Shown piece after piece: positions 21,100 to 58,602 of a stretch of DNA of 64,000 nucleotides. Within the stretch, counting starts at the first letter, position 1, and every line of letters begins with the position of its first letter. The notes under the pieces were generated by a model that saw only the letters and a program-made list of their open reading frames with translations, did not search any database and was not told the DNA's origin. This stretch comes from Trametes villosa. Its lineage: Eukaryota; Basidiomycota; Agaricomycetes; Polyporales; Polyporaceae. The position numbers and the translations under genes are program-made. The stretch is from NCBI GenBank assembly GCA_002964805.2, contig PUDQ02000003.1, forward strand, positions 3,286,001-3,350,000, given 5' to 3'.

Positions 21100-21101
21100 T
21101 A

Positions 21102-21427: not shown

Positions 21428-21435
21428 GATAAATA
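21428..21435 (+). promoter_or_regulatory. TATA-like box of homoserine dehydrogenase
   Basis: GATAAATA lies 86 nt upstream of the start codon at 21521, just inside the edge of unique sequence next to the MITE. A pyrimidine-rich stretch follows before the ATG, as is common in fungal promoters. Confidence 0.4.
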
Positions 21436-21520
21436 ACCTGGGCATGACTCGAGTGCCGTACCCCGCTCGCTGCACCCTTCTCCGCTTCCTCTTCAGTCTG
21501 CTTCCTCTTCAGCAACGACC

Positions 21521-29331: not shown

Positions 29332-31553
29332 TTACGCGCCAAGGATACTACACAACTCTGCCAGGGGCCCCACAACGGCGGACGGATGCGGGGTCTCATT
29401 GCGGACGCCGACGAGGAAGTCGACGTTGCCTTCGATGCCATCAAGACGCCTGACCAGCACCGTCGGATGCAAATCCACCATCGCAGGGACGAGAACGCGG
29501 CCCACGCCGCCGCTCACGACCACGACATCTGCCGCCGCCAACGCAGGGGCCCCGCCGTCCGACCTAGCCTGGAAAGCCGGAAGGTCGACTTGCTGGCACC
29601 ATCGCCGCAGTTGTGCGAAAAAACGTTTTAGGGACTGGCGTATGCACTGGCGCGTTCACAGGGAAGACCCGCGCCGTAGGAAGGACGAGCCGGAGGGTGG
29701 CGAGCGTGCTGGGGGAGAAGGGGGCGAGGCCAACGACCTTGTAGCCGTGCCGCGTGAGCCGATCGATAGACTGTGAAGCGTCGGAAAAGAGCTTGGGCGA
29801 GAGGATGCACGCAAGGGCGTCGGCGAGGAAGGCGGGCCGCGACGAACGCGCTATCTCGAGCTTGTCTGCTAGGTTCCTGAGGGCGAGATGTACGACTGCC
29901 GGGAGCGAGGTGGCGGATGCGTCCTGCGAGCACACAGTCAGAGCTTCCATTTCGAGGTATAGCTCCACTGCCGCTCGTGCGTCCAGAGAACGGCGGTGAG
30001 AAGCTGACAACCACGGTTCGATCGCGTCGCGGATCGCGCCCTCTCTGTCCTAGAACGTATGACCGCCACCTCAGCAAAATTGAGTAAAAAGTAATGCAGA
30101 GACTCACCAAGACAACTCCGAGTATATCGAGAACGACCACCTGTGGGGATGGGGACAGAGGCACGCTCGCGAAGGTCCATGGAAGATAGGGGAATGCGAA
30201 GGGAAGGTTCCACACGTAAAGTGACTTGTCCTCCTCGCCAACCGGGTCATTTTCACGTTGACTGTGGCCACCACCATCGGGCTTCGGTTCATTTCCGCTA
30301 CCGCGGCGGCTTGCCCTGCTCTCGCTCACGCCGCTGCGGCTACTCCCACCGCCGGCATGCCCGTTTCTGCCCCCGCCCCTCCTTTCATTGCTAGCAGTGC
30401 TCTTCGTGCTCCCAGTATGCCTTGAGCTCCCCTGGGTTGTGAAAGTCGCACCCGTGAGGGTGCGCCCATCGGTCACCGAGTCGCCGCTCCAGGTAGCGGT
30501 GCCGAGTGTTGAAAATGGCCAACAAGCCGCGAGCTGGGCCTGAAGTGCCGAATCTTTCCGAAACAGAGCTTGAGTTCGCCCTTGGGGAGGCGCATCAGCG
30601 TCATACTCGTCATAACTAGCTGGTTGCGCGGATATGCGACCTTCAAGGGCGTCCTGCAGGGTAATGGAGCCGCTAAGCATGACTATGCCGCGATGATATG
30701 ATCAGAATGCGTACCGCCCGAGTTTCGCGCACATATCGGATAGCTTTCTCCACGCCACGCCACCTATAATCCTTGCACAGCCTGCTGCAATATCAGTGCA
30801 TGTTGGTAGCGGTCAATGACGAGAGTAAGGAGCTCACTGATGATATATGAGGATATGATCGTAAATGCTCGACGGACTGTCACACCTCGGAGCGGGGCCG
30901 CTGTTGACAAAGTCGAAGCAATATGCTCGTGGGTTGTGGAGCTCGCCAAACATGTAGGTCGGGTCGAGATCTTCGCTCCCGAAGACGGGCCAGCCAGATT
31001 GCCGCCAGTCAGGAGTGCGAGCGTATGGTGACAACCGCTCTTCTAGTTCTGCCGTTCGGCGCTGCACCCAGGCATCGTAGACTGCGTCTTGGTTCGCCAC
31101 AGCCGAACTCCGGAATGCAAAGAAACTATCAGGCTCGAAGGAGTCATAGGAAACCTCGAACGGAATCCTGTGGGCACCTGCAATTGGTAACGCAGGCACA
31201 GTGTGCAAGTAGAGCGGCGAGTGGAGAGTCTCTGCGTAGCATCTTATGGGCGTTACGGCCATCAGCTGCGAGCTATCGGGTCCAGCGTCCGCGGTATGTT
31301 CGCCGGTGTCGATGGCGAATTTAGGGCCTATAGTGAATGAGGCATCGGGGACGGCGATGGGCGACGGGAGTGTGGATATCGCGCACAGGAAACCAGGCGC
31401 GTCGGGGTCTCCAATGTCGTCGTGGAGGTTGAATCGGACGGCCCAGAAATAAACGTTGGGGATCCTCGCCGCAGCAAGCTGACCGTCACGAGGCAGCCAG
31501 TACGCAGATTTGTCAGGTCTGAACTGAGCAACGACGAACCCATGCAGCGCCAT
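29332..31553 (-). pseudogene. HF1: unknown N-terminal domain fused to HAD-like domain, frameshifted
   Basis: Exons 31553-30838, 30781-30715, 30653-30108 and 30049-29332 follow the plan shared by all HF genes. The N-terminal domain (about 240 residues) starts MALHGFVVAQFRPDKSAYWL and ends with YMFGELHNPRAYCFDF. The 67-nt exon 2 encodes LCKDYRWRGVEKAIRYV. A Ser/Gly-rich linker follows. The HAD-type motif I (VVVLDILGVVL, Asp about residue 437, then DREG) spans the exon 3/4 junction. Exon 4 is 718 nt, one more than in HF2: a run of six A (29618-29623) shifts the frame after PVPKTFF. The correct continuation, up to the GGVGRVLVPA and HPTVLVRR segments, lies in the next frame down to a stop at 29332. 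It is a mutation or a homopolymer error. Its partner kinase K1 lies 600 bp upstream on the same strand. Confidence 0.75.
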
Positions 31554-32153
31554 GCCTGAGATATGAGCTGTCCAAGGTGGTGGCAGCTTTTTGGGGTCAA
31601 TATTGAACCCCAGTGCGGCCGCAACTGGATGCGTACTTCCGCTCAGTAGGCCGCAGACAAGGACAAAGAGGGGAGGATGAGGTCTGGTTTGCGTCCGTCA
31701 GTTGATGAGAGTACCCAGTAGTAAAACCCACATACAGAGAGACTCAGGAGAGTTGAGCAGCGGTTTGTACCAGTTTGAATGTGGTGGTCCGAAACAAAAC
31801 GCCTGTCGCGGTAGTAGGGGTGATACTGCTGGCGCTTACGCCGGCTGGACAAGCGTCCGGTGTGGGCGCGTACCGCAGACTCGACGCACTCGACAGCGAA
31901 CGACGCTTACTCTGAGATTTATCTTCGCCTTACGGACCATAGCCGTAACATAGTGCAGCTGGGAAATTGTCCCCGGGACTGCCGAAATATTCAGCGCGGT
32001 ACCGACATGCCATCCCGCCGAGCGAGTTCCACTGTGTTCCAACTTATTGCGCTGCAAGTGGCCGTGAAGATCGAACGGAGCACTGTACAGTAACAATACC
32101 GGCCGTAGTACAGGATTTAAACGCCTGCACATGCGCCAATGAAGCGTGGGCCT
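31554..32153. promoter_or_regulatory. Spacer between kinase K1 and HF1
   Basis: About 600 bp separate the end of K1 from the start of HF1 on the same strand. It should contain the K1 terminator and the HF1 promoter. No gene is visible. Confidence 0.4.
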
Positions 32154-33367
32154 TCACATATAGTTAGGATTCCACTGTTGCTCCTCCACGTAGCGTAGCG
32201 CCGCAACGTACTCCTCGGGCAGGAGTGTTCCGCTCTTCTTCCAGGACGAGTCCATCCAGTCGTACACCCAATCGCACACCCACCCCTCCGCGCGCATTCG
32301 CTCGCGGAACAGTCCTCGAAGCATCGCGTAGTCCGGCTCCTCTCCGAACGCCAGGCCCTTGACGTGAGCGTGATACTTTGCGAACTCGGGTGGGGAGAGC
32401 GCGAGAATACCCCCGAGTTCCGGGTCCATCTTCATTGCATGGATGAGCGACCGCCTGGTCGACTCGGGCCCAAGGAGATGCTTCCAAGGAAGGTTGACGC
32501 CGTGGATGAATTCGAGGAGGACATATAGTAGGGATTCAACGTCGTCGGCGCGGGACACGGCTGTAAGGCACAGAGTTACCAGTAAGCAGAGCGACTGAAG
32601 AGGAGAGACGGTAAATGGGCACACCGTGCGACTGGTGTGCAGCTACGCTGGCGTACCGGACTGTTCCTAGCGGGCGGAGGTCGTCCACGGAGATCGGGAT
32701 ATGCTCGCCGGTGTCTGCTAGGAGGTACGGACGTGCGAGCGCGAAGTCGAACATGTAGACGATCTTTGCTGTCTTGCCGCGGCCCATCGCGAAGTTGTGC
32801 GGCTTGATGTCGCACCCGACCATCCCTCTAGAGTGTAAAAACTGTATCCGACGGAGCTAGCGGCAAATTCAGTGAGAGATGGTGAACGGTAGGGCGATAT
32901 ATGGTAGCGGAATGGCACCCTTACCATCTGTTCGGCGAGCATGCACGTCGTGCGCAGGGTAAAGGTCCCTCTGCAGACGCGAAGCAAGCTGCTAAGATTG
33001 GGACTGAGGTAGTCCATGACAATCACGCAGTGGTTGGCGTCATTGCCGGCGTAGTGGATGGTCGGAAAGCCCTCGGTGCCGTCGGGGATGAGGGCGTGCA
33101 CCATCGCTTCGTACTTCAGCCTCGGTATACAGAGCTCCTCGTCATTGAAGCGTTCAATGTGCTTGATGGCAACTTCGGAGCCTGTGTTGATGTTGAACGC
33201 GCGCACAACATCGCCTGACGACCAGGAAAGTCAGTCTCCGTACGCGCTGAGTGATTAGGATATATACCGTCAGAGCCGCTGCCTAAGAAGTGGGTAACTT
33301 GGTAAATCCCGCAAACGGAGTATGATGCGGTGAATCCGGTGTCCTCAGAAGTAGAAGCAGACTGCAT
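32154..33367 (-). CDS. K1: divergent CK1-like kinase
   Basis: Four exons, 33367-33268, 33214-32925, 32856-32625 and 32560-32154, encode 342 residues, about the size of a bare kinase domain. The glycine loop is LGSGSDG. The ATP-anchoring Lys is in EVAIK (Lys51). The catalytic loop reads GCDIKPHN (Asp146, Lys148, Asn151), where CK1 kinases have HRDIKPxN, so the HRD Arg is Cys. The magnesium motif is DFA (167-169) instead of DFG. CK1-like features include GTVRYASVAAH after the activation segment and SRADDVESLLYVLLEF. Key acidic and lysine residues remain, so activity is possible but altered; phosphotransfer is not shown by sequence. It is paired with HF1. Confidence 0.85.
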
Positions 33368-34640
33368 ATGAATTCACACGTAGGATGGGACGACGGTTAG
33401 CAACGTATGCGAGATCTAGATGCCGGCAATCGTGGGCCAGTGCCAGCACTGTGAGTTTGACGGTCAAAGAGGAGGAAGGCACAGGCTGCGGAGTGGACTT
33501 GTTCAAGTTGGGCTGCGTGTATGTGGTATGACGGTGGTTATTGGACAAAAATATTTGCAACCCTTCTACCCCGCCGTTCCTCTTGATTCCCCACCGATCC
33601 CCACTGATCCCCTCTGGTCATCGTCGTTCCTCCTGATTCACCAGCTTGCACTCTCTATCCTCGCCGCTCAGCATAGATCCCTATGGTTCCCGGCGAGGGT
33701 GATGCACCCTGATTCCCCATGGTTCCCTCCATGAGGGCAATGCATCGAAAACACGAGTGGTAGTGAAACACCGTGATTCCTCACTGATCACTCTATTTCC
33801 CCAATGGCTCGGGGCATGTTCCGGTGTTATTTCCTCACAGTTCCTCGCAGTTCCTAGCAATACCAGCAAAGTCGAGTCAGTGGTGCAATGCGGCCAACTT
33901 GAAGACTTTCATGTGCTACTAGGCTAGGGCTTATAATGGTAGCCCCCGGGGTCCGTCGTTAAAGACTCGGGTTATCGGAGCAAGTACAGCGCATTTAGCT
34001 AACTATAAGCCGTTCTAGCGCGCTATGGAGTAGGCCATTGGACTCTCTTACAGTACGTGACTGAGGTATTCAACTTCTAGCAATCGAAGGGCGGGAGGGG
34101 TAGGCCTCGCTGATTAAGCGCTGGGGAATTAGAGGGAAACACGAAGCCCGAGACCGATTACATTTTGCGAGCTCGGTGGGGACCTACGGCGACGCTGCCA
34201 CCACGGTACAATATAGTCATGGGGATCCATGGGGAATCAAACTGAATTGATGTGCACTGAGGAGTGAGCGAAGACCGCGACGGAGTGGTGCAGAACGGGG
34301 ATCGAGTGAGGAGCGCTGGTGCACAGTGGGGAACCAGGGGGAATCGTGGGGATTTACGCGGAATTGTGCTGCATTGGGATGAACCATGGTGATTCTCGGT
34401 GAACTTCGGGGAAAACCCCTGGTTAAGTGGATTAAGTCCAGTAAACCGCCTCATAATGTGGGCCGCCGTGAACGTTTGAAACACAACCGAATGGGGAAGC
34501 GCCCGCATGGCGCCCAAGGAGCTCGCTCAGCCCAGTGCACTGCTCAACACACGCAATAAGTATACCTGTATCTTGGTGAGGTGACAACCGAAGAATCAAA
34601 GGCGAGGATATTATTGGATAGAGAACCTGTGCGACATGAA
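33368..34640. other. Intergenic region with two opposed TGATTCCCC-type arrays
   Basis: About 33574-33855 holds many short TGATTCCCC/CGATCCCC/GGTTCCC words on the plus strand. About 34200-34420 holds the same words in reverse complement (GGGGAATC, GGGGATT, GGGGAACC). Between them is unremarkable sequence. No gene is supported. The arrangement looks like a worn inverted repeat or mobile element. Confidence 0.5.
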
Positions 34641-37003
34641 TTACACGCAAAGCATCTCGCACAACTCCAGCAAAGACCCGACCACGGCAGACGGATGCGG
34701 GGTCTCATCGCGAACGCCGACGACGAAGTCGACGCTGCCCTCGATGCCGCCGGGCCGCCTGACCAGCACCGTCGGGTGCTGGTCCACCATCGCAGGAGCA
34801 AGGATCCGACCCACGCCGCCGCTCACGACGACAACGTCTACCGCCGCCAACGCGGGAGCGCTCTCTGAACTCCATGCCTGGAGAACCGGAAGGCCGATAT
34901 GCTGGCACCACCGCCGCAGGTGTGCAAAGAAAGTGTCGGAGACGGGCACGTGCACGGGCGCATTTACCGGAAAGACTTGTTCCCTGGGAAGGAGGGGCCG
35001 GAGGGTGTCCAACGTGCTCAGAGAGAACGGCGCCAGGCCGACGACCGTGTAGCCATGTCGCGCGAGCCGGGCGATAGACTGTGCAGCGTCCCCGTATGGT
35101 TTGGGCGAGAGGATGCACGCGAGAGCGTCAGCGAAGAAGGCGGGGCGCAACGAGCGCGCAATGTCGAGCTTGCCTGCGAGGTCGCTGAGGGCGAGGTGCA
35201 TAGCGGCCGGGAGCGAATTAGCGGATGCGCCCTGGGCGCGGGCAGCCAGCGCTTCTAGCTCGAGGTAGAGCTTCACGGCCGCCGACGTGCTTGAAGGACG
35301 ACGGCGGGATGCGGACAACCACGGCTCGATCGCGTCGCGGATCGCACCCTCTCTATCCTAGAAAGTGTAGCCACCGCCTCAGCATAAGCAGCATGCACAG
35401 ATTAAGGGATGCAGAGGCTCACCAATATAACGCTGAACACCTCGAGGACGACCATTCGTGGAGATGGGGGCAGAGGAACCCTCGGGAAGCTGAGGGGAAC
35501 TGTTGGGAATGCCGGGGAGAGAATACGGACGGTCACTAGGTTGCTAGCTTTACCAGCCTGGTCAGCGGCCTGGTCAACGGCCTGGACAGCGGCCTGGTCG
35601 ACGGCCTGGTCAGCGGCACCTGATTTCCGGTCGTCGTCGTTGTCGTTGTCGTCGTTGTCGTTGTCGTTATCGTTGTCGTTGTCGCTGTCGTTGTCGTCGT
35701 CGTTGTTGTCGTCGTCGTCGCCGTTGTCGTCGTCAGGAGCCGCTTGACTTCCGCCTTCGGCGCGAGGGCTCCCGTCGTCTTGCTTCAAGTCGCTGCCGCT
35801 ACCGCAACTCCCGACGCTGGAGTTTCCACTTCTGGCCCCGCTCTCGGCATCGCTTGTGATGCTGCTACCGCTGCGAGAAGACTTATAGCTCTCCAATTCT
35901 TCACTAGTCACACCGCTGATGGTACCCCACATGGTGCCGCTCTCGTTGGAAGTCGCGGCTCTGAGTTCGGAGATTCTCCAACAGGCTTCAAAGTGTGCCT
36001 GAAGCGCCGAGCTTTGCTCGAACGAAGCCAGAGGTGGTTCAGAAAGGGGCGGTGTGGCATCATATTCGGCGTATCCAGCTGGTTCCACGCAATTTGGGTG
36101 CTCGAGGGCGTGCTGTGGGGAAAGAGCACAACTGAGCATGTCTTCGCGTCGACGATGATGATAAGATGTGTACCGCTCGGGCGTTTCGCACGTATCCAAT
36201 GACTTGCTCGACGCCACGCCATCTATAGTCCCTGCACACCCTGTCGCCATGTCAGTACACGTGCGAGTCAGGCTGCATGAGCAGGGAGGTACTCACTGAT
36301 GATACAGGAACATTTGGGTATAGATCTCCGATGGACGGTCGATCCACGGAAGAGGGCCAGAGTTGACGAACTCAAAACAATACGCCCGCGGGTTGTGCAG
36401 CTCGCCAAACATGTAGGTCGGATCCATAGCCTCGTGACCGAGAGTAGCCCGCCAACCCAAAGTACCCGGCGCGCGAGCAAGCGGGGCCAATTTTTCCGCG
36501 AGTTCTGCCGATTTGCGCTCTGCCCAAACGTCGTACACTGCGTCTTGGTTCACCGCGGCCGCATCCCGGAATTCCGAGAAGCTGTCTGTATCGAGCAAGT
36601 CGTAGGGTGGCGGCATCGGGATTCTGCGGGCCCCAGCGATCGATAGTACAGGCGTGGTGTGCAGGTAGAGCGGCGAGTGCAGATTCGCTTCTCGACATTT
36701 GATGGGTACGATGGCTACCAGCTGCGAGTCATCGGGCCCACTGGTAGGTCTCGTGTCTGTGTCGACAGCGACTTTGGGGCCTATGGTGAACGAGGCATTG
36801 GGGACAGGTATGGGCGACGGGAGTGTAGATATTACACAGAGAAATCCAGGCGTGTCTGAGCTTCCAGGGTCGTCATTGAGGTTGAATCGGACGGCCCAGA
36901 AACGGGGGTTGGGGATCTTGGCCGCGGCTAGCTGACCAGAACGAGGTAACCAGTACGCGGATTCGCCGGGTTTGAATTGAGCGACGACAAACCCGTGGGA
37001 CAT
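34641..37003 (-). CDS. HF2: unknown N-terminal domain fused to HAD-like domain, nucleophile changed
   Basis: Exons 37003-36297, 36240-36174 (67 nt), 36112-35423 and 35357-34641 encode 726 residues without a break. The N-terminal domain (MSHGFVVAQFKPGESAYWL to YMFGELHNPRAYCFEF) is closest to HF1. Exon 2 encodes VCRDYRWRGVEQVIGYV. The linker is unusually long and acidic: repeated Asp/Asn (about 35640-35740) followed by Ala/Asp/Gln repeats (about 35560-35630). Motif I reads VVVLEVFSVIL, so the nucleophile Asp of HAD enzymes is Glu (residue 482) and the following Gly is Ser. The rest of the HAD-like domain (VVGLAPFSLSTL, GGVGRILAPAM, HPTVLVRRPGGIEG) is kept. It is likely catalytically dead. Partner kinase K2 lies 581 bp upstream on the same strand. 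Confidence 0.85.
35540..35745 (-). repeat. Trinucleotide-type repeats coding acidic linker
   Basis: Plus-strand GTCGTCGTTGTC-type triplets (about 35630-35735) encode Asp/Asn runs on the minus strand inside HF2 exon 3. Adjacent GGCCTGGTCAACGGCCTGG-type units (about 35560-35620) encode an Ala/Val/Asp/Gln repeat. Such tracts expand easily and should vary between strains. Confidence 0.85.
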
Positions 37004-37584: not shown

Positions 37585-38791
37585 TCACATACAGTGCGGA
37601 TTCCACTCCCGCTCCTCTACGTAGCGTAGCGCAGGAACATATTCCTCGGGTAGGAGCGTCCCTTTCTTGTGCGCGGACGTGTTCATCCAGTCATACACCC
37701 AGTCGCATGCCCATCCCTGTGCGCGCATCCGTTCGCGAAAGAACCCGCGAAGCAGCGCATAGTCCGGCTTCTCGCCAAATTCCAGGCTTTTGACGTGCGC
37801 ATGATACGCTGCGAACTCGGGCGGAGAGCGCGCGAGGATTCCTGCGAGTCCCGGGTCTTCTTTCATCTCGCAGATGTGCATCCGCTTGATGGATTCGGGC
37901 CCTGGGAGTCCTTTCCATGGAAGGGAGCCGTGGTGAAACTCGAGGAGGATATAAAGCAGCGATTCAAGGTCGTCCGCGCGAGACACGGCTGTAAAACGGG
38001 TAGCAGATTAGCGGGATATCCAAAGAAAAGAAACGGAGGTGCTGACGCACCGTGCGACTTGTGTGCCGCCACGCTGGCATACCGGACAGTTCCAAGCGGA
38101 CGACGATTGTTCACGGAGAACGGGATGTGCTCGCCGGTGTCTGCCAGGATATATGGTCGCGCAAGAGCGAAGTCGAACATGTAAACAATCTTTGCGGTCT
38201 CGCCACGGCCCATTGCAAAGTTGTGTGGTTTGATATCACAACTGATCATCCGTGTAGCGTGAAACGTCTCTATCCGGCGGAGCTAGTGGCGCAATGACCA
38301 AACGATCAGTGAATTGCAGGTCTGGATGAGACAGTGGTGTGGCGTACCATTTGTTCGGCGAGCATACAGGTGGTGCGCAGGTGAAAGGTACCCCGACACA
38401 CGCGGAGCAAGCTGCTAAGGTTTGGACTGAGATGGTCCATGACTATAACATAGTGGTTGGCGTCGTAGCCGGCGTAGTGGATGGACGGGAAGCCTTCGGT
38501 GCCGTCGGGGATAAGGGCATGGACCATTGCTTCGTACTTCAGGCCTGGAATGCTGAGTTCGTCGTGGGTTGAGCGAGCCTGTTGCTTGATTGCCACTTCG
38601 ACCCCTGTGTTGATGTTGAATGCGCGCAGGACTTCGCCTGAAGACCTAGTTAGTGAAACTCAGTACGCGCAGCGTGAAAGGAGCATAGTACCGTCCGAGC
38701 CCATACCCAAGAAATGGGTGGCTTGGTAGATCCCGCATACAGAGTAGGATAAAATGAATCCGCGTTCCTCTGGAGCAGTATTGGACTGCAT
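37585..38791 (-). CDS. K2: divergent CK1-like kinase
   Basis: Exons 38791-38692, 38637-38348, 38282-38051 and 37988-37585 encode 341 residues. The first three exons have exactly the same lengths as in K1. Start chosen at MQSNTAPEERGF, matching K1's MQS start; the upstream extension begins only at TTG. The loop is LGMGSDG, Lys51 is in EVAIK, the catalytic loop is ISCDIKPHN (Asp146, Asn151) and the metal motif is DFA. The HRD His-Arg pair is replaced by Ser-Cys. The helix before it (LRRIETFHATRM) has drifted from the LHSRG seen in other copies. It is the closest relative of K1 and is paired with HF2. Confidence 0.85.
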
Positions 38792-42975: not shown

Positions 42976-44295
42976 CTAGATCTTGCCGATGGAGAGGTTG
43001 CGGATGTACTCGCGCACGGTGATGCGGACGGTCTCGCCGAAGGACCAGAAGTCGAGTGTGGACGAGAAGGTGTCCGCGAAGCCGAAGGGAAGCATGAGCG
43101 GGATCCAGCCTGCGCCACACCATCGCCGTCAGCGTCTGCGCACCGGCGCGAATCAAGGAAACGCACCTCTGGCGTACTCGAGCGCGTAGCAGCCCTCGTG
43201 CATCTTGTACTGCTTGACGTGGCCGCGGCGGAGGTGGTGGACGTCGCCGGGGCGGTAGACCTCCATCTCGAGCTTGGGCGGGTCGAACGCCCACTGCTCG
43301 CCGACGAGGATGTTGAAGTAGTCGTCCGCGGTGTGCACGCCGCTGTGGCCCTCCGTCCCGAGCGGCGTGCCGAACACGATGAGGTACTCGGTGATGCTCG
43401 CGTGGATGACGTACATCGCGCCCATCGCGCCGCCGGCGTTGTTGAACACCCACTCGGACGCGTTCGTGTTGAGCGCGATGGCGGAGGATGGGTAGTGCGC
43501 GGTGAGGTTCGAGACGATGAAGGGGATGATCGCGTTGATGTCGCCCGGGTGCGCGCGCACGGCGGCCTGCGCAACCTCGTGCAGCAGCTCGGGCGTGAAG
43601 ACGTACCACCGGTCCTGCGGGGAGATTGGGTTCAGCACGCTGCGCAGACCGATGCGGGGGCGCGAGGAGGGTGACAGATAGTGTTCGCAGCAAAACGCTG
43701 CCATTCTGCCGCGGGCAATTGCCAGGCGGCATCTGCCATTCTGTCAAGCGAGGGCCCCGGCAGAATCTGCATTGCGCATACAACATTGTTAACCTGCTGT
43801 AGCGAGCACCCCGCTCATAGTTTGCTTTCGCGGAGGTATCCGGGACAGACGCCTTTTCAAGCGGCGCCGTCCCAGTGAGATGACATCGCATCCGCGCAAT
43901 TTGGGTGCACGGCGAGAACCCCAAGATCAAACCCAGACCTGTAAGTGTTGTAATCAACACTTACAGGCCTGTATTTGTTGCCTGGCGAGAGTTCTATCCA
44001 TGCAATTGCAAAGCTGGAGGGCTTTAGGCGTCTGGAGTTCTGCCAGCATTTGCCGGCCCTGGCAAAAGCCGTTCTGCCATTTCTGCCGGCAGAACCGACC
44101 CAAAACAGTTCTGCCCTATACACTAGTGACAGAACTCACCTTGATGCGGTCAAGGACGGCGCAGGCGAGGTAGACGACGAACGCGATGAGGGCGCGGTAT
44201 GCCCACTTGACGAGGGAGCTCCCGGGGCTCGTCGACGCGCTCGCGCCCGCCGCGTTCTTGCCGACGCCCGACGCCGACTTCTTCGTTGCGCCCAT
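42976..44295 (-). CDS. ERG2: C-8 sterol isomerase
   Basis: Exons 44295-44140, 43614-43167 and 43109-42976 encode 245 residues (yeast Erg2 has 222). The enzyme moves the C8-C9 double bond of fecosterol to C7 in ergosterol synthesis in the ER membrane; it is homologous to the mammalian sigma-1 receptor. One N-terminal membrane span (ALIAFVVYLACAVL) is followed by YVFTPELLHEVAQ, the cupin-like core with WVFNNAGGAMGAMYVIHAS, HSGVHTADDYFNIL and LRRGHVKQYKMHEGCYALEY, and the C-terminal helix SSTLDFWSFGETVRITVREY. Intron 2 is 57 nt. Intron 1 is 525 nt because of a transposon-like insertion (43679-44125). Confidence 0.95.
43679..44125. mobile_element. 447-bp hAT-like non-autonomous element in ERG2 intron 1
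   Basis: An 8-bp direct repeat GTGACAGA flanks it (43671-43678 and 44126-44133). The element begins TAGTGT and ends ACACTA, which fits the YARNG ends and 8-bp duplication of hAT transposons. Weaker inverted similarity (TTCTGCC and TTGCCAGG words) continues inward at both ends. Without the element and one copy of the duplication the intron would be 70 nt, a normal length here. Confidence 0.75.
43938..43967. repeat. Perfect 13-bp hairpin inside the hAT-like element
   Basis: CCTGTAAGTGTTG, loop TAAT, then CAACACTTACAGG. It would form a strong stem in either transcript. The stem includes a GTAAGT-type sequence, but splicing there is not expected in ERG2, which is transcribed from the other strand. 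Confidence 0.85.
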
Positions 44296-46897: not shown

Positions 46898-48139
46898 TCA
46901 CATGTAGTTCGGGTTCCACTCCCTCTCCTCCACGAAGTCCATCGACACGACGTACTCGCTAGGCAGGAGCGTGCCGCCCGGAAGCCCCGCCGGGTCGATC
47001 CAGTCGTACTTCCCGTCGTACGCCCAGCCCTCCCTGCGCATCCGCCCGCGGAACAGCCCGCGCAGCAGTGCGTAGTCCGGCTCCTGCCCGTACGCCAGCC
47101 TAGATACATGCGCGTGGAACGCCGCGAACTCGGGCGGGGAGCGCGCGAGGAGCACGCGGAGCGGCCCCGCGGCCGTCGTGTCGCTCTTCATCTCGCGGAT
47201 GAGCTTGTTGTCCCAGCCGGGCGGCGCGGGGAGCGCCGCCCAGGGGAGCTTGCCGTGGTGGAACTCGAGCAGGACGTAGAGCAGCGACTCGAGGTCGTCG
47301 GCGCGCGACGGGGCTGTAGTAGGATGAATGGTGAGCGGGAGGAGCGGTGCGGAGGACAGCAGGCCCGCGTGTGGCGGAGGACGCACAGTGTGACTGGTGG
47401 GCCGCCACGCTGGCGTAGCGGACGGTGCCCGTGGGGCGGTCGCTCGTCGCGGAGAACGGGAGGTGCGCGCCGGTGTCCGCGCTGATGTACGGCCGCGCGT
47501 ACGCGAAGTCGAAGAGGTGCACGATGTGCGCGGTCTTGTCGAAGCCCATGGCGAAGTTGTGCGGCTTGATGTCGCAGCTGACCATCCCCCGCGAGTGCAA
47601 GAACTGGATCCTGTCAAGCTGAGCGCGGAGGCGTAAGCGTGGCGACGAAGGGTTGGCGGGAAGTAGGGTGGCGCACCATCTGCTCGGCGAGCATGCACGT
47701 CGTGCGGAACGTGAACGAGCCTCTGCACACACGCAGCAGTGTGCCGAGGCTCAGACCCAGTCTGTCCATGACGATGACGTATTGGTTCGCATCCCGGCCG
47801 GCGTAGTGGACAGACGGGAAGCCCTCGGTCCCGTCGGGGATGAGTGCGTGGACCATCGCCTCGTACTTCAGCATGGGGATGTGGAGTTCGTCCACGTTGG
47901 TACGGGCGACCTGCTTGATGGCCACCTCCGCGCCGGTGTTGATGTTGAATCCGCGCATGACACGGCCTGTTGCGATGGACATGAGAGGTCAGCACAACAG
48001 CGCCAAGTGGGTGCGCGTCGAGGGGTTGCATACCGTCTGAACCTGCGCCAAGGGTGTGCGTGACCTGGTATATCCCGCACACGGAGTAGGACTGGATGAA
48101 GTCTTCTGCTCTAGGCGTTCCAAGAATGGGCGGGGGCAT
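46898..48139 (-). CDS. K3: divergent CK1-like kinase
   Basis: Exons 48139-48034, 47966-47677, 47618-47387 and 47313-46898 encode 347 residues. Start chosen at MPPPILGTPRAEDF; upstream codons open only from TTG. The glycine loop is LGAGSDG, Lys53 lies in EVAIK, the catalytic loop is MVSCDIKPHN (Asp148, Asn153) and the metal motif is DFA. Exons 2 and 3 are 290 and 232 nt as in K1 and K2. Distinctive residues shared with K4 are ARTNVDE (K4: PRTNVDE), VMDRLG and the C-terminal ERxWNPN(Y/F)M. It lies downstream of HF3 on the same strand with a 402-bp gap, the reverse order of K1-HF1. Confidence 0.85.
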   Translation of the reverse strand: MPPPILGTPRAEDFIQSYSVCGIYQVTHTLGAGSDGMQPLDAHPLGAVVLTSHVHRNRPCHARIQHQHRRGGGHQAGRPYQRGRTPHPHAEVRGDGPRTHPRRDRGLPVCPLRRPGCEPIRHRHGQTGSEPRHTAACVQRLVHVPHDVHARRADGAPPYFPPTLRRHAYASALSLTGSSSCTRGGWSAATSSRTTSPWASTRPRTSCTSSTSRTRGRTSARTPARTSRSPRRATAPRAPSATPAWRPTSHTVRPPPHAGLLSSAPLLPLTIHPTTAPSRADDLESLLYVLLEFHHGKLPWAALPAPPGWDNKLIREMKSDTTAAGPLRVLLARSPPEFAAFHAHVSRLAYGQEPDYALLRGLFRGRMRREGWAYDGKYDWIDPAGLPGGTLLPSEYVVSMDFVEEREWNPNYM

Positions 48140-48541: not shown

Positions 48542-50627
48542 TCAACCCGAGCTCGAAGCAGCCTCGTCGACCGCGCGGCAGAGCCCCTCAAGGCCGTCCA
48601 CGCAGACCGACGGGTGCGGGCTATTCTCGTCCGCGCCAAGCACATACTCGACGTCGCACTCGATGCCCCCGGGGCGCATCACGAGCGCGGTGGGGTGCGT
48701 GTCTGTCGTCGCCGGCCCCAGGATACGGCCCATGCCTGTGGTAGCGACCAGGATGTCCTCCGGGGCGCACGCATTATGCGCGGGTAGAACGACCTGCGCG
48801 CACCACTGCCGTAATTGGGAGAAGAAATTCTCTGGAACGGGCGTGTGCAAGGGGATGGCGACCGGGAAGAAGTATATGTGCTCCAGAAGGCGGGGCGGGA
48901 GCGCGGGACGGAGGGAGGCGAGTGTGCTCGAGGACAGCGGGGCGAGGACGACAATCGTGCAGCCGCACCGCACGAGCTCCATGATATGCGCTTCGACGTC
49001 GCTATGTGGACGTGGGCGGAGGATTATGGCGGCAGCGTCCGAGCGGAAGGAGGGGCGCAAGACGTGCGGCATGTCGACCTTCGTGGAGAATGTGTCGAGG
49101 GCGCTGTGGACGATAGTCGGTAGAGAGGTCGCACCGGAGCCGAGATCGTTCACTGTAAGCGCCTCCAGCTCAAGGTATAGCTTGACGGATTCCTCCGTGC
49201 TCTCGAGAGGCCGACGAGCAAGTGGTAACCATGGATCGAGCGCTGCCCGTATTGCACCTTCCCTGTCCTATATAAACAGTAGCTACGTCAGTGTTCCGAG
49301 ATTGAATGCCCCGAGTGTGCTAAAACGGCGCTCACGAAGACAGCGTCGAACATGTCGAGAACGACCACCCGCGGGACGTGCCGCAGGGGCACGCGCGGAA
49401 AGTATTCAGGTACCCGTGGGTTGTTGAACGGGAGCCACCATACCCACACGCCAGAGCTACTACCGTCGCTATCCGAGCCAGAGCCGGAGGCCTGAGAGCC
49501 TTTGGCACCCGTCGACGAAGGACGCGCTGAACCCGCACTTCCTTCGCCACACTCGGAGTCCGAATCAGGCTCCTGAAGAATGTCCGTTGCTGCTAGGGCA
49601 GACACGGCGGCCAGCTGCGAGCGAAATGTCGGGTCTTGTTGAACGAGAGAACCCGCTGATGCGTGTACTGGAACGTCAGCCTTGACACACTCAGGTAGCG
49701 GTACACCGTCGTCGAGGCCAGATGTGTACTACGAAAGCGAAGACAATGAGCACCGTTCGGGAGACCCACGGGGAGCCTAAGAGAAGTGCTTACCTTTCTG
49801 ACGGCCTCTACCCAGTCCAGAGATCCTTCTACGCTCTCCCATCTATAGTCCCTGCAGATCCTACAGCACGTTCAGTACCCATGCGAGGCGTGAACAGGTT
49901 ATACGTACTGCGCATAAAGAAGAATCTGGTTGTATATCGGCGCCGGGAAATCGCAGTAGGGAATCGAGCCTTCTCGTACGAACTCGAAGCAATACGCTCG
50001 AGGGTTATGCAGCTGGCCAAAGATGTAAGATGGGTCGCGGCTGGCCCCGTAGCGTGCCCAGTTCTTCAACGTCTCTTCACTAAATCCCAGAGGTTGGCGA
50101 TACGAGAGTCGATCCGCGACCTGTGAGGCCGTGCGTGCCTCCCAGGCCTCGTGGAACTGCCTTTCATGTGATGACACCGCATGCTGAAACTTGAGAAAAC
50201 CTTCTGTGTCAAGTTGGTGGCGGCTTTGCCCGGGCACTACGGGCTGCCCGACACCCCCGAGTACGCGCAACGATGGTGCTGTGTGCAAGTAGACCGGCTT
50301 GTGGAGCGTGTCTGATAAACAAACCAAGGGTGGTTGAACGCGCAGTTGGGTGTCATCTAGTTCGACGTCAACCGACAACTCGTCAGTATCGAGCGCGTAT
50401 TTGGGCCGCAGAGTGAAGGAGGCGTCGGGAGTGGGCAGAGAAGGCGGCAGAATGGAAATGGCGCACAGACGGCCAAAGGAAATATCAGGATTGTCGATGA
50501 AATTGAAACGGAGGGCGTAGAAGGGTCGACAGGGAATTTTTGACGCTGTGATACGTGCTGAAATCGTCAGCCAGTACGATGACTCAACAGGCAAGAACTT
50601 GGCGATGACGATTGCATGAGACTCCAT
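48542..50627 (-). CDS. HF3: unknown N-terminal domain fused to HAD-like domain
   Basis: Exons 50627-49909, 49860-49794 (67 nt), 49728-49336 and 49267-48542 encode 634 residues. The N-terminal domain starts MESHAIVIAKFLPVESSYWL and ends YIFGQLHNPRAYCFEF. Exon 2 encodes ICRDYRWESVEGSLDWV. The Ser/Asp-rich linker ends in VWVWWLPFNNP, shared with HF4. Motif I is VVVLDMFDAVF (Asp about 387), keeping the nucleophile but with Asp in place of the usual Gly. It continues as DREG, VVLAPLSSSTL, then ATTGMGRILGPA and HPTALVMRPGGIECDVEY. The Lys and the acidic residue of HAD motifs III and IV are not evident. It is head-to-head with HF4. Confidence 0.85.
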
Positions 50628-51051
50628 GAAAGGGCCTTGAAGAAACTATCTCTCTGACGGCTAGGACTTTCGTGGTGAACGGTGTCTGGTGCACGTCACT
50701 GTAGTCACTACAGAACGAGCTCATGGTGAGTGTACTGTGATACTACCTGTGATCATAGAGAAGGGAAACATACCTCAGTCTCGCGCGCGCAAACGGTGGT
50801 GGCAGGAGGCAAGATTTGGAGAAGAGCGACTGAGCAAACATACATAGTAGCAGTCAGTAAGCGGGCTAGTAAAGTACGCGGCTCTTGTAAGCACCTCCGT
50901 ATCAAAGTAAGTAGAGGGTACTTGCATGCGGTTACAACCATTCAACCGGTTTAAAAGCGCTTGTTGACGCCCTTGGAAGTTGGCTCGTATGCTCCTTCGC
51001 CTCAATGATTGTAATACCGCCGCTCTGCTTTCACCGGTCCTTGTCAATCCC
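50628..51051. promoter_or_regulatory. Shared 424-bp promoter region of HF3 and HF4
   Basis: HF3 and HF4 start at either end and run outward. A TATA-like TTTAAAAG lies at about 50950, 100 nt before the HF4 start. A short inverted similarity around the two starts would be expected if the pair arose by inverted duplication, but I did not see a clear long palindrome. Confidence 0.45.
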
Positions 51052-53110
51052 ATGTCCCATGCCATCGTCGTTGCTCAGTTTCGCCCTTCTAAGTCAGCTT
51101 ATTGGTTGCCCCATCCTGCCCGTCTTGCAGCCGTCAAAATACCCACCCAGCCCTTCTGGGCCATCCGATTCAGCTTCGATGATGAAGTCGCCCCCGGACT
51201 ACTTTGCGTCATCTCTACGGACCCGCCATCCCTGGCCGACTCCTCCTTCGTCTTGGGGCCCAAGTTCGCAATTGATTCCGAGACGTTTCTTACCAATGTC
51301 GCACCTAGCGAAGCGCAGCTCACCATACAGCCGCCTCTCGACTGCCTGTCAGAATACCTTCATCAGAAGGTTTACCTGCATACTGCGCCGACCTTGAACG
51401 TCATGGGAGGACACAAACCCATGGACCCTGAAATCATACGCCACCAACTCGACACCGAAAGTTTTTCCAGGTTCAAAGAGGCAGCCACGGCGAACAAAGC
51501 GCGAGTCTACGATGCTTGGCTAGCGCGAGTAAAAGAGCAACTGGGGAAACAGTTGCCGCACTATACGCCTTCTTTCGACAACGACACGTCAGAGGAATGG
51601 TCCCTCTTCAGCGCATGCGCGGACCCAACGTACATTTTCGGCCGACTGCACAACCCCCATGCATACACCTTCGAGTTCGTCAACGAATGCAGCATTCCCT
51701 TCTGCAACTACGCCCCGTCGATTTACAACGAGATGTTTATGTTTTCTCAGTATGTTCGTCCCCGGCTTCACTGGCCCCATACTAACGATGCTACAGACTT
51801 TGCAAGGACTATAGATGGGAAGGCGTTGAAGGCACCATCGACTGGTTGGAGGCGATCCGAGCGGTATGCATTATGCTTCATTTGCGTACCTGCGACAAGC
51901 TAAGTATCTACGAATGGCACTGATCGTGCCTTTTCCCCAGTACTGGCGTGACCGCCCAAGCAAGCCTATTGCACTACCAGCTCGACACACCAAGGCCGAA
52001 TTTCCGACATACGCGCCTGTCAGCTCTCTACTCGAGCAGAATCCGGGGCACCGCGCCCAGATGGCGGCTGTGGCGCATCTTGTGTCACTCGGTACCCTCC
52101 GGTCGGATTCGGAGGACGAGAGCGACAGCAGCAGTAGCCTCGGTGATTCGCAACGCAGCCGGTCTTCTACTACGTCGAGCGACACTAGCTCTGGAAGATG
52201 GGTATGGTGGCTTCCGTTCAACAACCCGACGGTGGCGCGACACTTTCCTCGAGTACGTCTAGAACGCCCTCCATCTGTCGTTGTCCTCGACGTGTTCGGT
52301 GTCATTTTAGTAGGTGTTGAATACAAAACCTCTCCCGGCTTCTCTACTGCGCAACTCACTTCACTGACTTCCTCTCAGGACAGGGAAGGCACGATTTTCA
52401 CCGCGCTCGAACCGTGGCTGCCCTTCGCCCGCCGTCGCCCCGTGGACTGTACGGAAGCCGTTAAGCTCTACTTAGAGCTCGAGGCTTTAGCAGCGTACGA
52501 CCTGCGTTCTAGTGCCACTTCGCTGCCAGTTCTTGTTCACGCCGCACTCAAGACCCTCGCGATCAAGCTTGACATACCCTCGGTCTCCCGCCCCGTCTTC
52601 TTTTCCAACACCCTCACATCCATCCTGCGTCCTCAGTTATACCGCGACGCCACCAAGAACATTGAACGCCTCGCTCAGCTTGGCTGCGCGATCGTCGTCC
52701 TGGCGCCCTTTTCCACGAGCACTGCACAAGCCATTCGCGCCGCCCTTCCTCCCCATCTCCTGCGTCTCGTGCAGTTCTTTCCGCAAGCCGTCCCACTGCA
52801 TACCCCCGTCCCGGACACGTTCTTCTCCAAGTTGCGCCGATGGTGCGCGCGAGCTGTTCTGCCGCCATCCCACCGAAGTTGCACACCGGCAGACATCCTC
52901 GTTGCAAGCACGGGCATGGGCCGCGTCCTGGGGCCGGCGGCGGCAGACGCGCATCCTACGGCGCTCGTCATGCAAACCGGGGGGCTCGAATGTGCGATCG
53001 AGTACATTGTGGGCGGGGGTGAGAGTTCGCCTCGCCCGTCGGTCTTCGTGGACGGGGGCCTTGAGGGTCTTTACTCTGAAATTGTCAAGCTCGCGTCTGC
53101 GTCCAGCTGA
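51052..53110 (+). CDS. HF4: unknown N-terminal domain fused to HAD-like domain
   Basis: Exons 51052-51749, 51797-51863 (67 nt), 51941-52309 and 52379-53110 encode 621 residues. The N-terminal domain (residues 1-232) begins MSHAIVVAQFRPSKSAYWL and ends YIFGRLHNPHAYTFEF. Exon 2 gives LCKDYRWEGVEGTIDWL. The linker is Ser/Asp-rich with RWVWWLPFNNP. The HAD-like domain starts at motif I VVVLDVFGVIL (Asp about 372) and DREGTIFTALEPWLPF, the order seen in type II haloacid dehalogenases (D-x-x-G...D). VVLAPFSTSTA fits motif II. HTPVPDTFF stands where a lysine is expected, and ASTGMGRVLGPAAAD where motif IV acid is expected. This is the best-preserved HF copy. Kinase K4 follows after 379 bp on the same strand. 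Confidence 0.85.
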
Positions 53111-53489
53111 ACGACGCTGCTCATGTGCATTTGTACCGCGGGTTCGGGCACACCAGCTCGGGAGTTTGGAGGATACAGCTCGATGTCCGGTATAAGATGT
53201 CGGTGTTGAGAATAGAGAAGAATGTCATGCGCGTTCCAAGCTTCTTCATAGTGCATTTACTGCTGCACTCAGGCTCGCCGAGTTGCACGCGCATGCGGGA
53301 GTGCACTAGCCGAGGCGCTCAGAACATCCTCCGCCGTGCAACACCGCCATCAAGCGGCATCGACTCTTCAGCTTCATCCGTCACGTCGACCAGCGTCGGT
53401 CATACGCAAGCTGCTACCAAGACTTCTGTCATCGGTTCCGCAAGTTTGACAGCTTTCCGAGGCTGACTAGTTGCTTCTCACATACCGAC
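53111..53489. promoter_or_regulatory. Spacer between HF4 and kinase K4
   Basis: A 379-bp gap, mirror image of the 402-bp HF3-K3 gap. It should hold the K4 promoter. Confidence 0.4.
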
Positions 53490-54735
53490 ATGTTGGTCGG
53501 AACACCCAGAGTGAAGAAATTCATTCACTCATACTCGGTATGCGGTATCTATCAAGTCACGCATACCATAGGCGAGGGGCTCGACGGTATCGTCTTTTCC
53601 GGCACGTACACTTGGCCTCTCTCACTGACCGCCCCTGGTTCTTTTTATAGGGCGTGTCATGCGCGCCTTCAACATAAACACAGGAACCGAAGTGCCAGTG
53701 GCCATCAAGCTAATGCCTCGCACCAATGTGGATGAACACCACATCCCCGCACTCAAGTTCGAGGCAATGATTCACGCGCTCATTCCCGACGGGACAGAGG
53801 GCTTTCCCTCCATCCACTATGCCGGCCCCGATGCGAATCAATATGTCATCGTCATGGATAGACTTGGTCCGAACCTCGGCGCGCTGCTTCGCCTATGCAG
53901 AGGAGCGTTCACATTTCGTACAATCTGTATGCTCGCCGACCAGATGGTACGTCCCGCACCCACGTTATGAATTCCTTGCCTGACCGCATTTTTGCGATGC
54001 TGTTTTACCTGTGTCGTTACAGCTGCACAGGATCCAATTCCTACACTCCAGGGGGATCGTCAGCTGCGATATCAAGCCGCATAACTTCGCGGTGGGCTTT
54101 GACACCACGGCGCATATCGTCTACCTGTACGACTTTGCCTCTTCGCGGCCCTACGTCAACCCTGAAACTGGAGAGCACCTCCCCCTTACCTCGATCGACC
54201 ACGTCACTGGGACCATTCGGTACATGAGTGTCGCAGCACACAACGGACAGAGTGCGTTCTAGACATACTTTCCCTGCGCACATGCCACCCCAATCTCTGC
54301 TCACAAATCATCTCTGCAGCCCCTTCCCGTGCAGACGACATCGAGTCACTGCTATATACTCTTCTCGAGTTCTATCACGGCACGCTTCCCTGGAAGGAGC
54401 TTCCTGCGCCTCCCTCCCTGAAGCATAAGCTGATCCTCGAGATGAAGACCGACGCGACGCCAACCGGACCTTTCCAGATGTTCCTGGCGCGCTCTCCTCC
54501 GGAGTTCGTCGCCTACCATGCGCATGCGGCGAGTCTTGCGTACGGACAGGAGCCGGACTACGCACTGCTTCGCGGACTATTCCGCGAACGGATGCGCAAG
54601 GAGGGCTGGACGTACGACGGGAAGTACGACTGGATCGACCCGTCGGGGCTCGCGGGGGGCACCCTCCTGCCCGCGGAGTACGTCGCTTCGATGGGCTTCG
54701 TGGAGGAGAAGGAGTGGAACCCGAACTTCATGTGA
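53490..54735 (+). CDS. K4: divergent CK1-like kinase
   Basis: Exons 53490-53586, 53651-53946, 54023-54251 and 54320-54735 encode 345 residues. The glycine loop is IGEGLDG. The VAIK region is EVPVAIK (Lys52), with a two-residue insertion compared with the other copies, which accounts for the 296-nt second exon. The catalytic loop is IVSCDIKPHN (Asp147, Asn152); the metal motif is DFA (168-170). After the activation segment comes GTIRYMSVAAH. It is closest to K3. An unaltered start is supported by LVGTPR, which matches K3's ILGTPR. Confidence 0.85.
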
Positions 54736-54999
54736 ATAGGGGTTTTTACCCTCACGAATATAACTATTCAGTCTGGGTAGAAAGTGGATTTGGAACACTG
54801 TAAGCCGTCATGCTGCGCTAATTATCGAGCGATGGGGCGATCGGTGCTCGTCTCGACGGGCAGCACTGCGCCCGCCTACGTACAATGCGTTGAAAAGCAT
54901 CAATTGACAAACATACTTCTATCTATGACGACCGCGGGGTACATGAAGCTATCGAAAATCGATATATGCATTGCAGCGACGCCATGGTGGCGTGTTATG

Positions 55000-57016
55000 T
55001 CAGATCGCAAGCGCATGACAAAGCCCATCTAGGCCCTGTACAACCGCCGACGGGTGCGGCGTACTGTCGTCATTGCCCACAACGAACTCGACATCGCACT
55101 CAACGCCCCCCGGCTGCTTTACGAGCACCGCGGGGTGCCCGCCCAGCAGCGCCTGCGCGAGGACCCGGCCCACGCCCCCGCTGGCGACGACGACCGCCTC
55201 AGCGCCACAGCCCGGGGGCAATTGCAAGTCTGGCTTGCACCACGCGAAGAGCCGCGCAAAGAACGCGGCGGGGACGGGGGCGTGCAGCGGGATCGGCGCG
55301 GGGAAGAACTGCACGGCGGCGCGGAGGCGGGGCGGGAGCGCGGGACGGAGCGCGGCGAGGGTGCTGGCGGAGACGGGGACGAGGCCGACGACGGTGCAGC
55401 CGCGCTGCACGAGCTGGTCGACGGCACGCACCGCGTCGCGGTGGGGCTGCGGGCGCAGGATCATTGCGGCCGCGTCGGCGAGGAACGCGGGACGCGCGGC
55501 GGGCGACATGGCGAGGCGCGCGGCGAGCGTGGTGAGGGCGGTGTGGACGATGCTCGGCAGCGACATGGCGGAGGTGCACGAGTTGCGTGCCGCCAAAGTT
55601 TCGATCTCGATGTAGAGCTTCACGGCTTGAGCCACGTCCTTCGGACGGCGGCCAACTAGAGGGAGCCAGGGGCTGAGCGCGGAGCTGATGGCGCCCTCCC
55701 GGTCCTGCGGTTTGGGAAGATGCTCGTTCTAGCGATCCCCTCACAGGAGCGACTCGGATGGTTTAGCTCACCAGGATGACGCCAAAGGTGTCAAGCACGA
55801 CGACCGGAGGAGTGTGGGGGAGAAGTACCCTCGGGAATCTTGCTGCAATGCGCGGAAACGCAAACGGGAGCTCCCACACCGATACATATGAGCTGCCCCA
55901 ACTTTCAGAGTCCGCTGTGTCCTCGTCGGAGTTGTAGCTTATGGGTTCAGTGCTGTCGAATGGCTTAGCTGCCGTGGACATAACAGCTGTCAGCTGCGCT
56001 CGGAAATCGGCGTCGTTCTGGTAAAGCTCTTCTGTTGGGATACGCTTTGCGTCTGCTCGAGTCATTGATGGCATTATGCGATCCTTGAGGCGGAAGCTAC
56101 GATAGTCCTGTGAATAAGATGCAGCTCAGTGACGGTACAAGATGCGACCGACAACAGAGTGCTGAGATACCGCTCTGGTTGCTCTGACCCACGCAATAGT
56201 CCTTTCCGCGCCGTTCCATCGGTAGTCTTTGCAAATCCTTGTTACAAGATAAGTACGCCGAATCCTACTGATTGCAAATGTCACTTACTGGGTATATAAG
56301 GCGACTTGTTCGTAGAATGGTATGGGGCAATCGCTGATCGGCAAGGGGGCATTAGGGTGGGCAGGGAGAAAGTCCAAATAGTATGCATGGGGATTGTGAA
56401 ATTCGCTGAACATGTAGGCGGGATCGGGAAGGTTGTAGGAAGGCCATGTTGAATTGCCGTCGGACGCTTGCTGCGTATAAGCGGGGGGCAGTCTTGCTGC
56501 CACCAGGGCCCCCCGGTATTTTTCCCAGACATCGTATATCGACAGTCTGTTATGATCTGCGGCCGACTGGAAGCGGCGGAAGCTGTCAATGTGGAGGCGA
56601 TGCAATGAATATGTGGCGTAGTTGGGAATGTTTTGCCATCCCATGACCACGAACGACGGCACGGTATGAGCATAGAGAGGTTGATGCAGCGAAGAACTGT
56701 GGCACGATATCGGAGGGTGAACCATTAGCTCACTGCTCGAGTCCCCAGTATCGGCGGAGAGCTGGCCCGTGTCGACGGCATATTTCGGACCCAAAGTGAA
56801 GGACGCATTGGGGAGGGGAATATTAGAGGGACGTGAGGAGATTGTACAGATTAAGGCCCCTGCATTAGTGCCCTCCTCCGATTCCTCGTTCAAGCTGAAT
56901 TGAACAGCCCAGAAGGGAGGGCACGGAATCCTTGCAGCAGCTTGACGACCAGAGGAAGATAACCAATAGGCAGATACGGCAGGGTTGAACTGGGCGTACA
57001 CGATAGAGTGTGGCAT
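55000..57016 (-). CDS. HF5: unknown N-terminal domain fused to HAD-like domain
   Basis: Exons 57016-56289, 56237-56171 (67 nt), 56107-55772 and 55704-55000 encode 611 residues. The N-terminal domain starts MPHSIVYAQFNPAVSAYWL and ends YMFSEFHNPHAYYLDF. Exon 2 gives ICKDYRWNGAERTIAWV. Motif I is VVVLDTFGVIL (Asp about 371), followed by DREGAISSALSPWLPL. Downstream are VVGLVPVSASTL, ASGGVGRVLAQA and HPAVLVKQPGGVECDVEF. This copy differs most from the others and has the shortest linker. It is transcribed away from kinase K5. Confidence 0.85.
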
Positions 57017-57337
57017 CTCAGTGTTGACTAGACGAGAGGGAGAGAGGAGACGAAGTTGTCAATGTTCGGGACAGATGACTCCCTTGACCGTGGCGGTGTT
57101 CGAATACTAGCTTCAGCCGACCAGCGCCTACTAAGCGCTCAACGTTGCAACGTTCAGTCGTGGTCCGTATTACAGGCCTCACTGATTAGCACCTGCGCCG
57201 GCCAGTGGACAGTCTAGCTCACCGCCCAGCCACCGCAGGTTGTTAGCTCCAGCGCTGACCTCAAGACAACATTTGGCTACGCGACCGTGTTCATCCTTCT
57301 TCGTCTCCGCGCTTCTGATTTTTCAAACTCATTCAGG
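57017..57337. promoter_or_regulatory. Divergent promoter region of HF5 and kinase K5
   Basis: A 321-bp spacer from which both genes of this cassette are transcribed outward, so they may share regulation. No other feature is visible. Confidence 0.45.
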
Positions 57338-58602
57338 ATGCAGTCAATTAGACTCCCTGACAACGAGTTCATCTCATCATACTCCGTGTGCGGTATTTAT
57401 CAAGTTACCCACAAGCTGGGAGAAGGATCCGACGGTGCGCCTTGTCTAGAACGTCGTTCGAGAAGATATCGCTCGCTGAACACGCGCGCCACCGTCTCAA
57501 GGGGAGGTCTTGCGCGCGTTCAACATCAACACAGGCGTCGAAGTGGCGATCAAGACGACGCCCCGCTTCAACCGAGAAGAGTACTTCACTCCCGCGATGA
57601 AGTACGAAGCTCTCGTCCACTCGCTGGTTCCGCATGACACGGAGGGTTTCCCGACCATCCACTACGCCGGTCCGGATGCAAACCACTACGTTATAGTCAT
57701 GGAGCGACTTGGTCCCAATCTGGCCGACTTGCTGCGCGTTTGCAGAGGCACATTCACATTAATGCGTACCATCTGCATGCTCGCTGACCAAATGGTACGT
57801 CAAGGTCGCAACTGCATAGCTGATGTATCTCGTGATTCATTGGCTGACATGTCACGCAACCCTCAATAGCTCAATCGACTAGAATTTCTACACTCCAGGG
57901 GGGTAGTTCACTGCGACGTGAAGACGCACAACTTTGCAGTGGGTCTTGGCGACAAGGCGGACATCGTCTACATGTTCGACTTCACATACGCACGGCCGTA
58001 TCTCCTTCCGGACATGAGCGGACACATCCCGTTCTCCTCGTCGGGGCGCCATGCCATCGGCACCGTCCGATACGCGAGCGTTGCGGCACACAAATCGCAC
58101 TGTACGTCCACTCTCCCTGCTTCATGGCGCCGTAACGCAGTTCCCACAGCATGTCGCTCACCTTCCTTTGCCCGCAGCCGTCTCTCGTGCCGACGACCTC
58201 GAGTCTCTCCTTTATGTCCTGCTCGAATTCTACCACGGCACCCTGCCATGGCAGGGGCTCCCCGCCCCCAACTCGTCGATCAAGCGCAAGATCGTCTACG
58301 AGATGAAGACGGATCCAAAAATCCCCGTGTCCATCTACTCGCTCCTCGGGCGCTCCCCGCCCGAGTTCCGCCAGTTCTACGTACACCTCATGAGCTTGGA
58401 GTACGGGGGAGAGCCGGATTATACGTACCTGCGCGACCTCTTCCGAGACTGGATGGAGCGGGAAGGCCCGGGGTATACGTACAATTGGAAGTACGACTGG
58501 ATGGACGCGTCGCGGCTGGCGAAAGGCACGCTTTTGCCCGAGGAGTACGTGGTCAACAAGGACTTCGTGGAGGAAACGATGTTCAACCCGTACGTGATGT
58601 GA
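57338..58602 (+). CDS. K5: divergent CK1-like kinase
   Basis: Exons 57338-57434, 57502-57794, 57870-58101 and 58178-58602 encode 348 residues. The glycine loop is LGEGSDG; Lys50 is in EVAIK. The catalytic loop is VVHCDVKTHN (Asp146, Lys148, Asn151), so the His of HRD is kept but Arg is Cys, and the conserved Pro after Lys is Thr. The metal motif is DFT (167-169). Exon 3 is 232 nt as in K1-K3. The C-terminus lengthens slightly and ends EETMFNPYVM. It is the most divergent K copy, as HF5 is among the HF copies. Confidence 0.85.

Follow-up and report, generated by a model that had tools for sequence, protein, structure and literature searches.

The DNA analysed here (the window; 64,000 nucleotides, C3:3286001-3350000) lies on contig PUDQ02000003.1 (C3) of the Trametes villosa assembly, which comprises 46.7 Mb in 140 contigs. 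Spliced models with small introns, predicted from genomic DNA alone, place within it five genes for CK1-like kinases (K1 to K5) and five for a second protein, HF (HF1 to HF5), as five neighbour pairs. Each kinase gene has four exons: K1 (342 aa; 32154..33367), K2 (341 aa; 37585..38791) and K3 (347 aa; 46898..48139; Pfam Pkinase, E 1.1e-15) are on the minus strand, K4 (345 aa; 53490..54735) and K5 (348 aa; 57338..58602) on the plus strand. Their partners HF1 (29341..31553), HF2 (726 aa; 34641..37003), HF3 (634 aa; 48542..50627) and HF5 (611 aa; 55000..57016) are on the minus strand, and HF4 (621 aa; 51052..53110) is on the plus strand. HF2 to HF5 are intact, whereas HF1, which shares the architecture of HF2, carries a frame break near 29623 in its last exon and is broken, although its partner K1 is intact. 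An earlier note on this DNA had described five such neighbour pairs, spaced by about 320-600 bp and arranged in three ways, and the spliced models agree with it on each count: every HF adjoins one K; the measured gaps between coding ends span 321-600 bp (K1-HF1, 600 bp; K2-HF2, 581; HF3-K3, 402; HF4-K4, 379; HF5/K5, 321); and the order is K then HF in pairs 1 and 2, HF then K in pairs 3 and 4, and divergent in pair 5. Within the window, identities of 62-78% among K and 39-58% among HF are far above chance, and we reject the reading of these genes as chance open reading frames because all five K and four of the five HF are intact, are built from several exons and have their introns at conserved places.

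The pairing, which the note had drawn from the window alone, continues beyond it. A search of the whole assembly with K3, K7, HF4 and HF7, in which locus counts are lower bounds, placed HF matches at at least eight loci (five in the window, two more on C3 and one on contig C68), adding two further intact pairs and one broken remnant. K6 (C3:3360908-3362117, minus strand) is divergent from HF6 (C3:3362585-3364584, plus strand) across a gap of 467 bp, both genes being intact, and the most divergent pair, K7/HF7 (C3:3391670-3394842, minus strand), forms a single open frame. Among the matches listed, a K gene or K exon stands beside all eight HF loci, no lone HF locus was found in the assembly, and an HF match is absent at all eight other CK1-family loci (one each on C1, C16, C10, C44, C33 and C18, and two on C20). 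The latter count leaves out weak matches to ordinary kinases, such as that at C10:2841352, and includes a C44 locus which starts about 600 bases from its contig end, so that one flank is short for the HF search. Because the C10 and C44 loci have identical scores, perhaps as two assembled copies of a single gene, C44 was left out of the CK1 tree, which places K1 to K7 with the seven remaining loci. In this tree, K1 to K7 form a clade separate from the seven other loci with support of 100/100. None of those seven is thus a lone K-clade gene, although one of them (C18) sits on a very long branch whose placement is unsure. Two nearly identical Hrr25-type CK1 genes were also observed at C1:2829000-2831500 and C16:344500-347000; these, like the shared C10/C44 locus, are either recent duplicates or haplotypes that the assembly did not collapse.

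Other genes stand within the array, as a DUF3419 gene (window 59523-60932, minus strand; E 3.3e-103), single copy by DNA, lies between pairs 5 and 6. Two open reading frames from the spacer that separates pair 2 from pair 3 were searched as candidates for a third pair-linked gene, and neither had another genomic copy at E up to 0.001; the DNA of this spacer has matches elsewhere for a single short repeat alone (window 43679-44126; 81-95% identical to stretches of C77, C1, C87 and C67). Just left of the array are two DUF6535 open reading frames on the plus strand (window 23983-25305 and 27069-28799), genes of a kind that fits the Agaricomycete label of the earlier note. They are preceded by a repeat of about 300 bp (21100-21398), whose inverted ends measure about 43 bp and which has partial or whole copies at several other genomic places; it looks like a small inverted-repeat transposon. 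Further left are pieces of a MULE-type transposase gene (14506-16547, minus strand), with a SWIM zinc finger and a MULE domain in neighbouring open reading frames, and tandem repeats at 7742-8121 and 9249-9729, comprising an array that repeats in a 21-base rhythm as well as a 186-bp family of which one copy is 98% identical to the reference.

The label of divergent CK1-like kinase given to K by the earlier note holds. The best PDB match of the K profile is CK1 delta (E 6.8e-72), across profile positions 21-313 and thus the whole catalytic domain, and the first tau-tubulin kinase ranks 39th among the best 60 of 673 matches. The catalytic Lys and Glu, the HRD Asp with its Lys and Asn, and the DFG Asp are kept in all seven K. 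The HRD Arg position, however, holds Cys in all seven, versus Arg in all seven other CK1 loci, which marks K as a divergent branch rather than an ordinary CK1, and the DFG Gly is replaced in six of the seven. At the substrate anion site, where CK1 delta has an Arg that we take to be R178, six K have Arg and K7 has Leu, as does one of three CK1 controls. K proteins are 28-38% identical to the seven other CK1 loci of the genome. Introns 1 and 2 share place and phase with the genome's own Hrr25-type gene, and the third coincides with, or is close to, an intron place in a Yck-type gene on C33, all in predicted models; K was therefore most likely derived from an ordinary CK1 gene. K thus resembles CK1 delta/epsilon and yeast Hrr25 in its best structural match, catalytic set and first two intron places, but departs from them in the Cys for HRD Arg, the loss of the DFG Gly in six of seven and its HF neighbour. 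CK1 kinases typically carry a long C-terminal tail, in place of which K has a short, conserved C-terminus. A weak match of K3, the K that was scanned, to PF17667, presumably the FunK1 fungal kinases, is below cut-off (E 0.026; 13.7 bits against 24.1), and K matches CK1 far better. Judged by these residues, K belongs to the CK1 family as a divergent, non-RD branch that is predicted to be active.

HF is a new protein family without a Pfam match. The window copies have four exons and a common layout, in which an N-terminal domain that Pfam does not match is joined through a Ser/acid-rich linker to a degenerate fold of HAD type II. In HF4, on the plus strand, exon 1 (51052..51749) encodes the N-terminal domain, exon 2 (51797..51863) a conserved [ILV]C[KR]DYRW segment, and the end of exon 3 with intron 3 and exon 4 (52199..53110) the HAD fold; the linker of HF2 is long and rich in Asp and Asn. 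Pfam returned no family for the whole HF3 and HF4 proteins at E up to 1, none for the seven N-terminal exons at E up to 10, and no HAD family in HF, and the HF profiles had no usable match in the PDB by sequence. Two apparent structural leads were discarded: a PDB match at 4e-7 is to a designed repeat protein and consists of four short pieces, each at E of about 8 or worse; and an AlphaFold2 model of the N-terminal domain was too poor (pLDDT 41.8), such that the sole match of its fold search (E 8.8) is meaningless. Viral contigs held neither HF nor K and prokaryote genomes held no HF, negatives of little weight given that these collections are by description without fungal genomes.

The earlier HAD label for HF stands as a description of its fold, which the C-terminal part matches, but the domain looks non-catalytic by alignment. 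TIGR01428, the L-2-haloacid dehalogenase model, is matched at E up to 10 by one of six HF members, which scores 22.9 bits where the cut-off is 125.4. The nucleophile position holds Asp in five of seven HF and Glu in HF2 and HF7, and the catalytic Lys of 2-haloacid dehalogenase (K152A entry) is absent from all seven. Motif IV of HADs is acidic, and the corresponding loop reads GxGR in six aligned copies. HF therefore shares its fold with L-2-haloacid dehalogenase but differs in its sub-cut-off score, its lost Lys and its new N-terminal domain. Within the linker, CK1-type sites reach 10.8 per 100 aa, whereas the two domains have 3.0 and 3.4; 79 were observed where shuffles of the same segments predict about 59, with no excess in HF3 and HF7, and the enrichment is mostly a matter of composition.

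From the HAD exon of HF7 to the first intron of K7, the DNA forms a single open frame uninterrupted by stops, with HF ahead of K, and the six other intact or near-intact pairs are separated by 321-600 bp. The junction spans 64 residues between the last conserved HF block (GLC) and the first conserved K block (GAYQ), and contains an internal ATG. Third-position G+C in this linker (0.60) lies between that of HF7 (0.62) and that of intergenic stretches, and does not settle its coding status. Judged from the open frame in the DNA, HF7 and K7 look fused; alternatively, the junction may hide an unrecognised intron, or translation may start at the internal ATG. The single frame suggests that the K and HF proteins probably work together.

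The remnant on C68, a contig of 24,079 bp, is less orderly. Its HF is split into two pieces that lie about 11 kb from each other and share 66% and 72% identity with HF3. A first K exon stands at the very end of the contig, where the sequence of this K breaks off; its DNA matches K1 at 89% identity over 136 bp. The middle HF fragment is flanked by perfect inverted repeats of 2,496 bp (9469-11964 and 12402-14897), attributable either to a mobile element or to an assembly fold-back, and we therefore take the locus to be a rearranged remnant. The combination of a K1-like exon with an adjoining HF3-like HF implies either that partners are not strictly fixed or that the contig is rearranged. Elsewhere in the assembly, the right-hand flank of the array (59520-61800) has no second copy and the left-hand stretch (18000-23300) has partial matches only; accordingly, we reject the idea that the cluster is present as a second haplotype, and C68 is not established as its allele.

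The pairs are old and arose by stepwise co-duplication. Across all seven, identities are 44-78% among K and 34-58% among HF, and both the K and the HF tree join pairs 1 and 2 and pairs 3 and 4 with high support and leave pair 7 outermost; for HF, which lacks an outgroup, this position comes solely from midpoint rooting. The remaining branch order is not firm, with 82-92% support in the tree of seven K but no resolution in the HF tree or in the larger tree of K and other CK1 loci. Pairs 1 and 2, a plain tandem duplication 5.3-5.5 kb apart, have dS of 0.90 (K1/K2) and 0.92 (HF1/HF2); the values for K3/K4 (0.95) and HF3/HF4 (1.83) are loose, given saturation and a third-position G+C of 0.90 in K3. 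With dS of 0.9 or more and duplication in steps, a single recent segmental duplication, which the earlier note had named as an outcome that would undo its reading of the pairing, is excluded. At the same duplications, dN is 0.32 and 0.40 for HF versus 0.14 and 0.14 for K, such that HF proteins have changed 2.4-2.8 times as fast. Of 21 pairwise HF comparisons, 18 were computable and gave dN/dS of 0.22-0.39, indicating purifying selection; K spans a similar 0.13-0.43, although many dS values are near saturation. The three relative orders (K-HF; HF-K, including the fused pair; divergent) require at least two changes on any tree, and adjacency of K and HF was kept through every one.

With moderate confidence, we propose that K and HF constitute one lineage-specific signalling unit, in which HF is the dedicated non-catalytic partner of K. 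The interpretation offered by the earlier note is partly supported. Its functional link is backed by the fused HF7-K7 frame, by the absence of lone members (K beside eight of eight HF loci, HF at none of eight other CK1 loci) and by adjacency kept through changes of order; the particular roles it offered, as kinase and substrate, kinase and inhibitor, or parties to a conflict, are ones that the products might conceivably fill. Under our proposal, K would be a predicted-active, non-RD kinase of the CK1 family, and the HAD domain of HF, its catalytic residues lost, would serve as a binding scaffold that docks to K, as its position next to K in the HF7-K7 fusion suggests. The N-terminal domain would confer specificity, the Ser/acid-rich linker would be a plausible K substrate and perhaps be phosphorylated, and the pair would have multiplied as a unit into paralogous versions. 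Also in favour of this account are the separate clade of K1 to K7, the sister pairs common to both trees with like dS for pairs 1 and 2, the catalytic set retained by K, the residues lost from HF and the density of CK1-type sites in the linker. A physical K-HF complex, HF phosphorylation and this division of labour between HF domains are put forward as predictions. Against partnership, the fusion is a single case, HF1 is broken beside an intact K1, and the C68 partners are mismatched; the enrichment of linker sites, mostly compositional and with no excess over composition in HF3 and HF7, also counts against the substrate reading.

The main rival is that K and HF are neighbours by descent only: they would have become adjacent once by chance and been copied in tandem as a block, their products unconnected. 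Seven of the eight pairs sit within one 80-kb stretch of C3, such that tandem duplication of linked genes could by itself explain much of the pairing, and pairs 1 and 2 are exactly such a duplication. We nonetheless consider this explanation unlikely, if a serious one, as it sits poorly with the HF7-K7 open frame, with adjacency retained over at least two order changes in pairs whose dS is 0.9 or more, and with the lack of any lone HF among the matches listed or lone K-clade member among the seven other CK1 loci in the tree.

It is more doubtful that the K-HF pairs are polymorphic and function in self/non-self recognition, or as killer and protector, with HF as the fast-evolving specificity part. 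Clustered multi-copy pairs, the faster protein change of HF at shared duplications, and the broken HF1 and C68 copies would all fit such a system, but HF dN/dS is in the purifying range and similar to that of K, and the fastest part of HF is a low-complexity linker, where change needs no selection. The K-HF array resembles the mushroom A mating locus, with its paired HD1/HD2 genes, in clustering several paralogous two-gene pairs of which some are divergent; however, HF has no homeodomain by Pfam (whole HF3 and HF4, and seven N-terminal exons). Slightly less probable again is an undescribed fungal system of paired recognition in which, at each locus, a non-RD CK1-type kinase is matched to a HAD-fold pseudoenzyme receptor or adaptor; the loci would have multiplied and diversified, such that the pairing state of HF versions would switch the kinases on or off. 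Least credible of all is catalytic activity of HF, as a HAD hydrolase or phosphatase opposing K in a kinase-phosphatase pair, as the HAD type II fold and the Asp in five of seven HF are outweighed by the universal loss of the Lys, the Glu in HF2 and HF7 and the GxGR loop.

CK1 kinases are usually few and serve many pathways. If our proposal is true, T. villosa would possess a branch of CK1 that is encoded together with a partner of its own, and a dehalogenase fold would have been reused as a signalling scaffold. A multiplied, partner-tied branch of this kind would be a good system in which to study the birth of kinase specificity through gene pairing and fusion.
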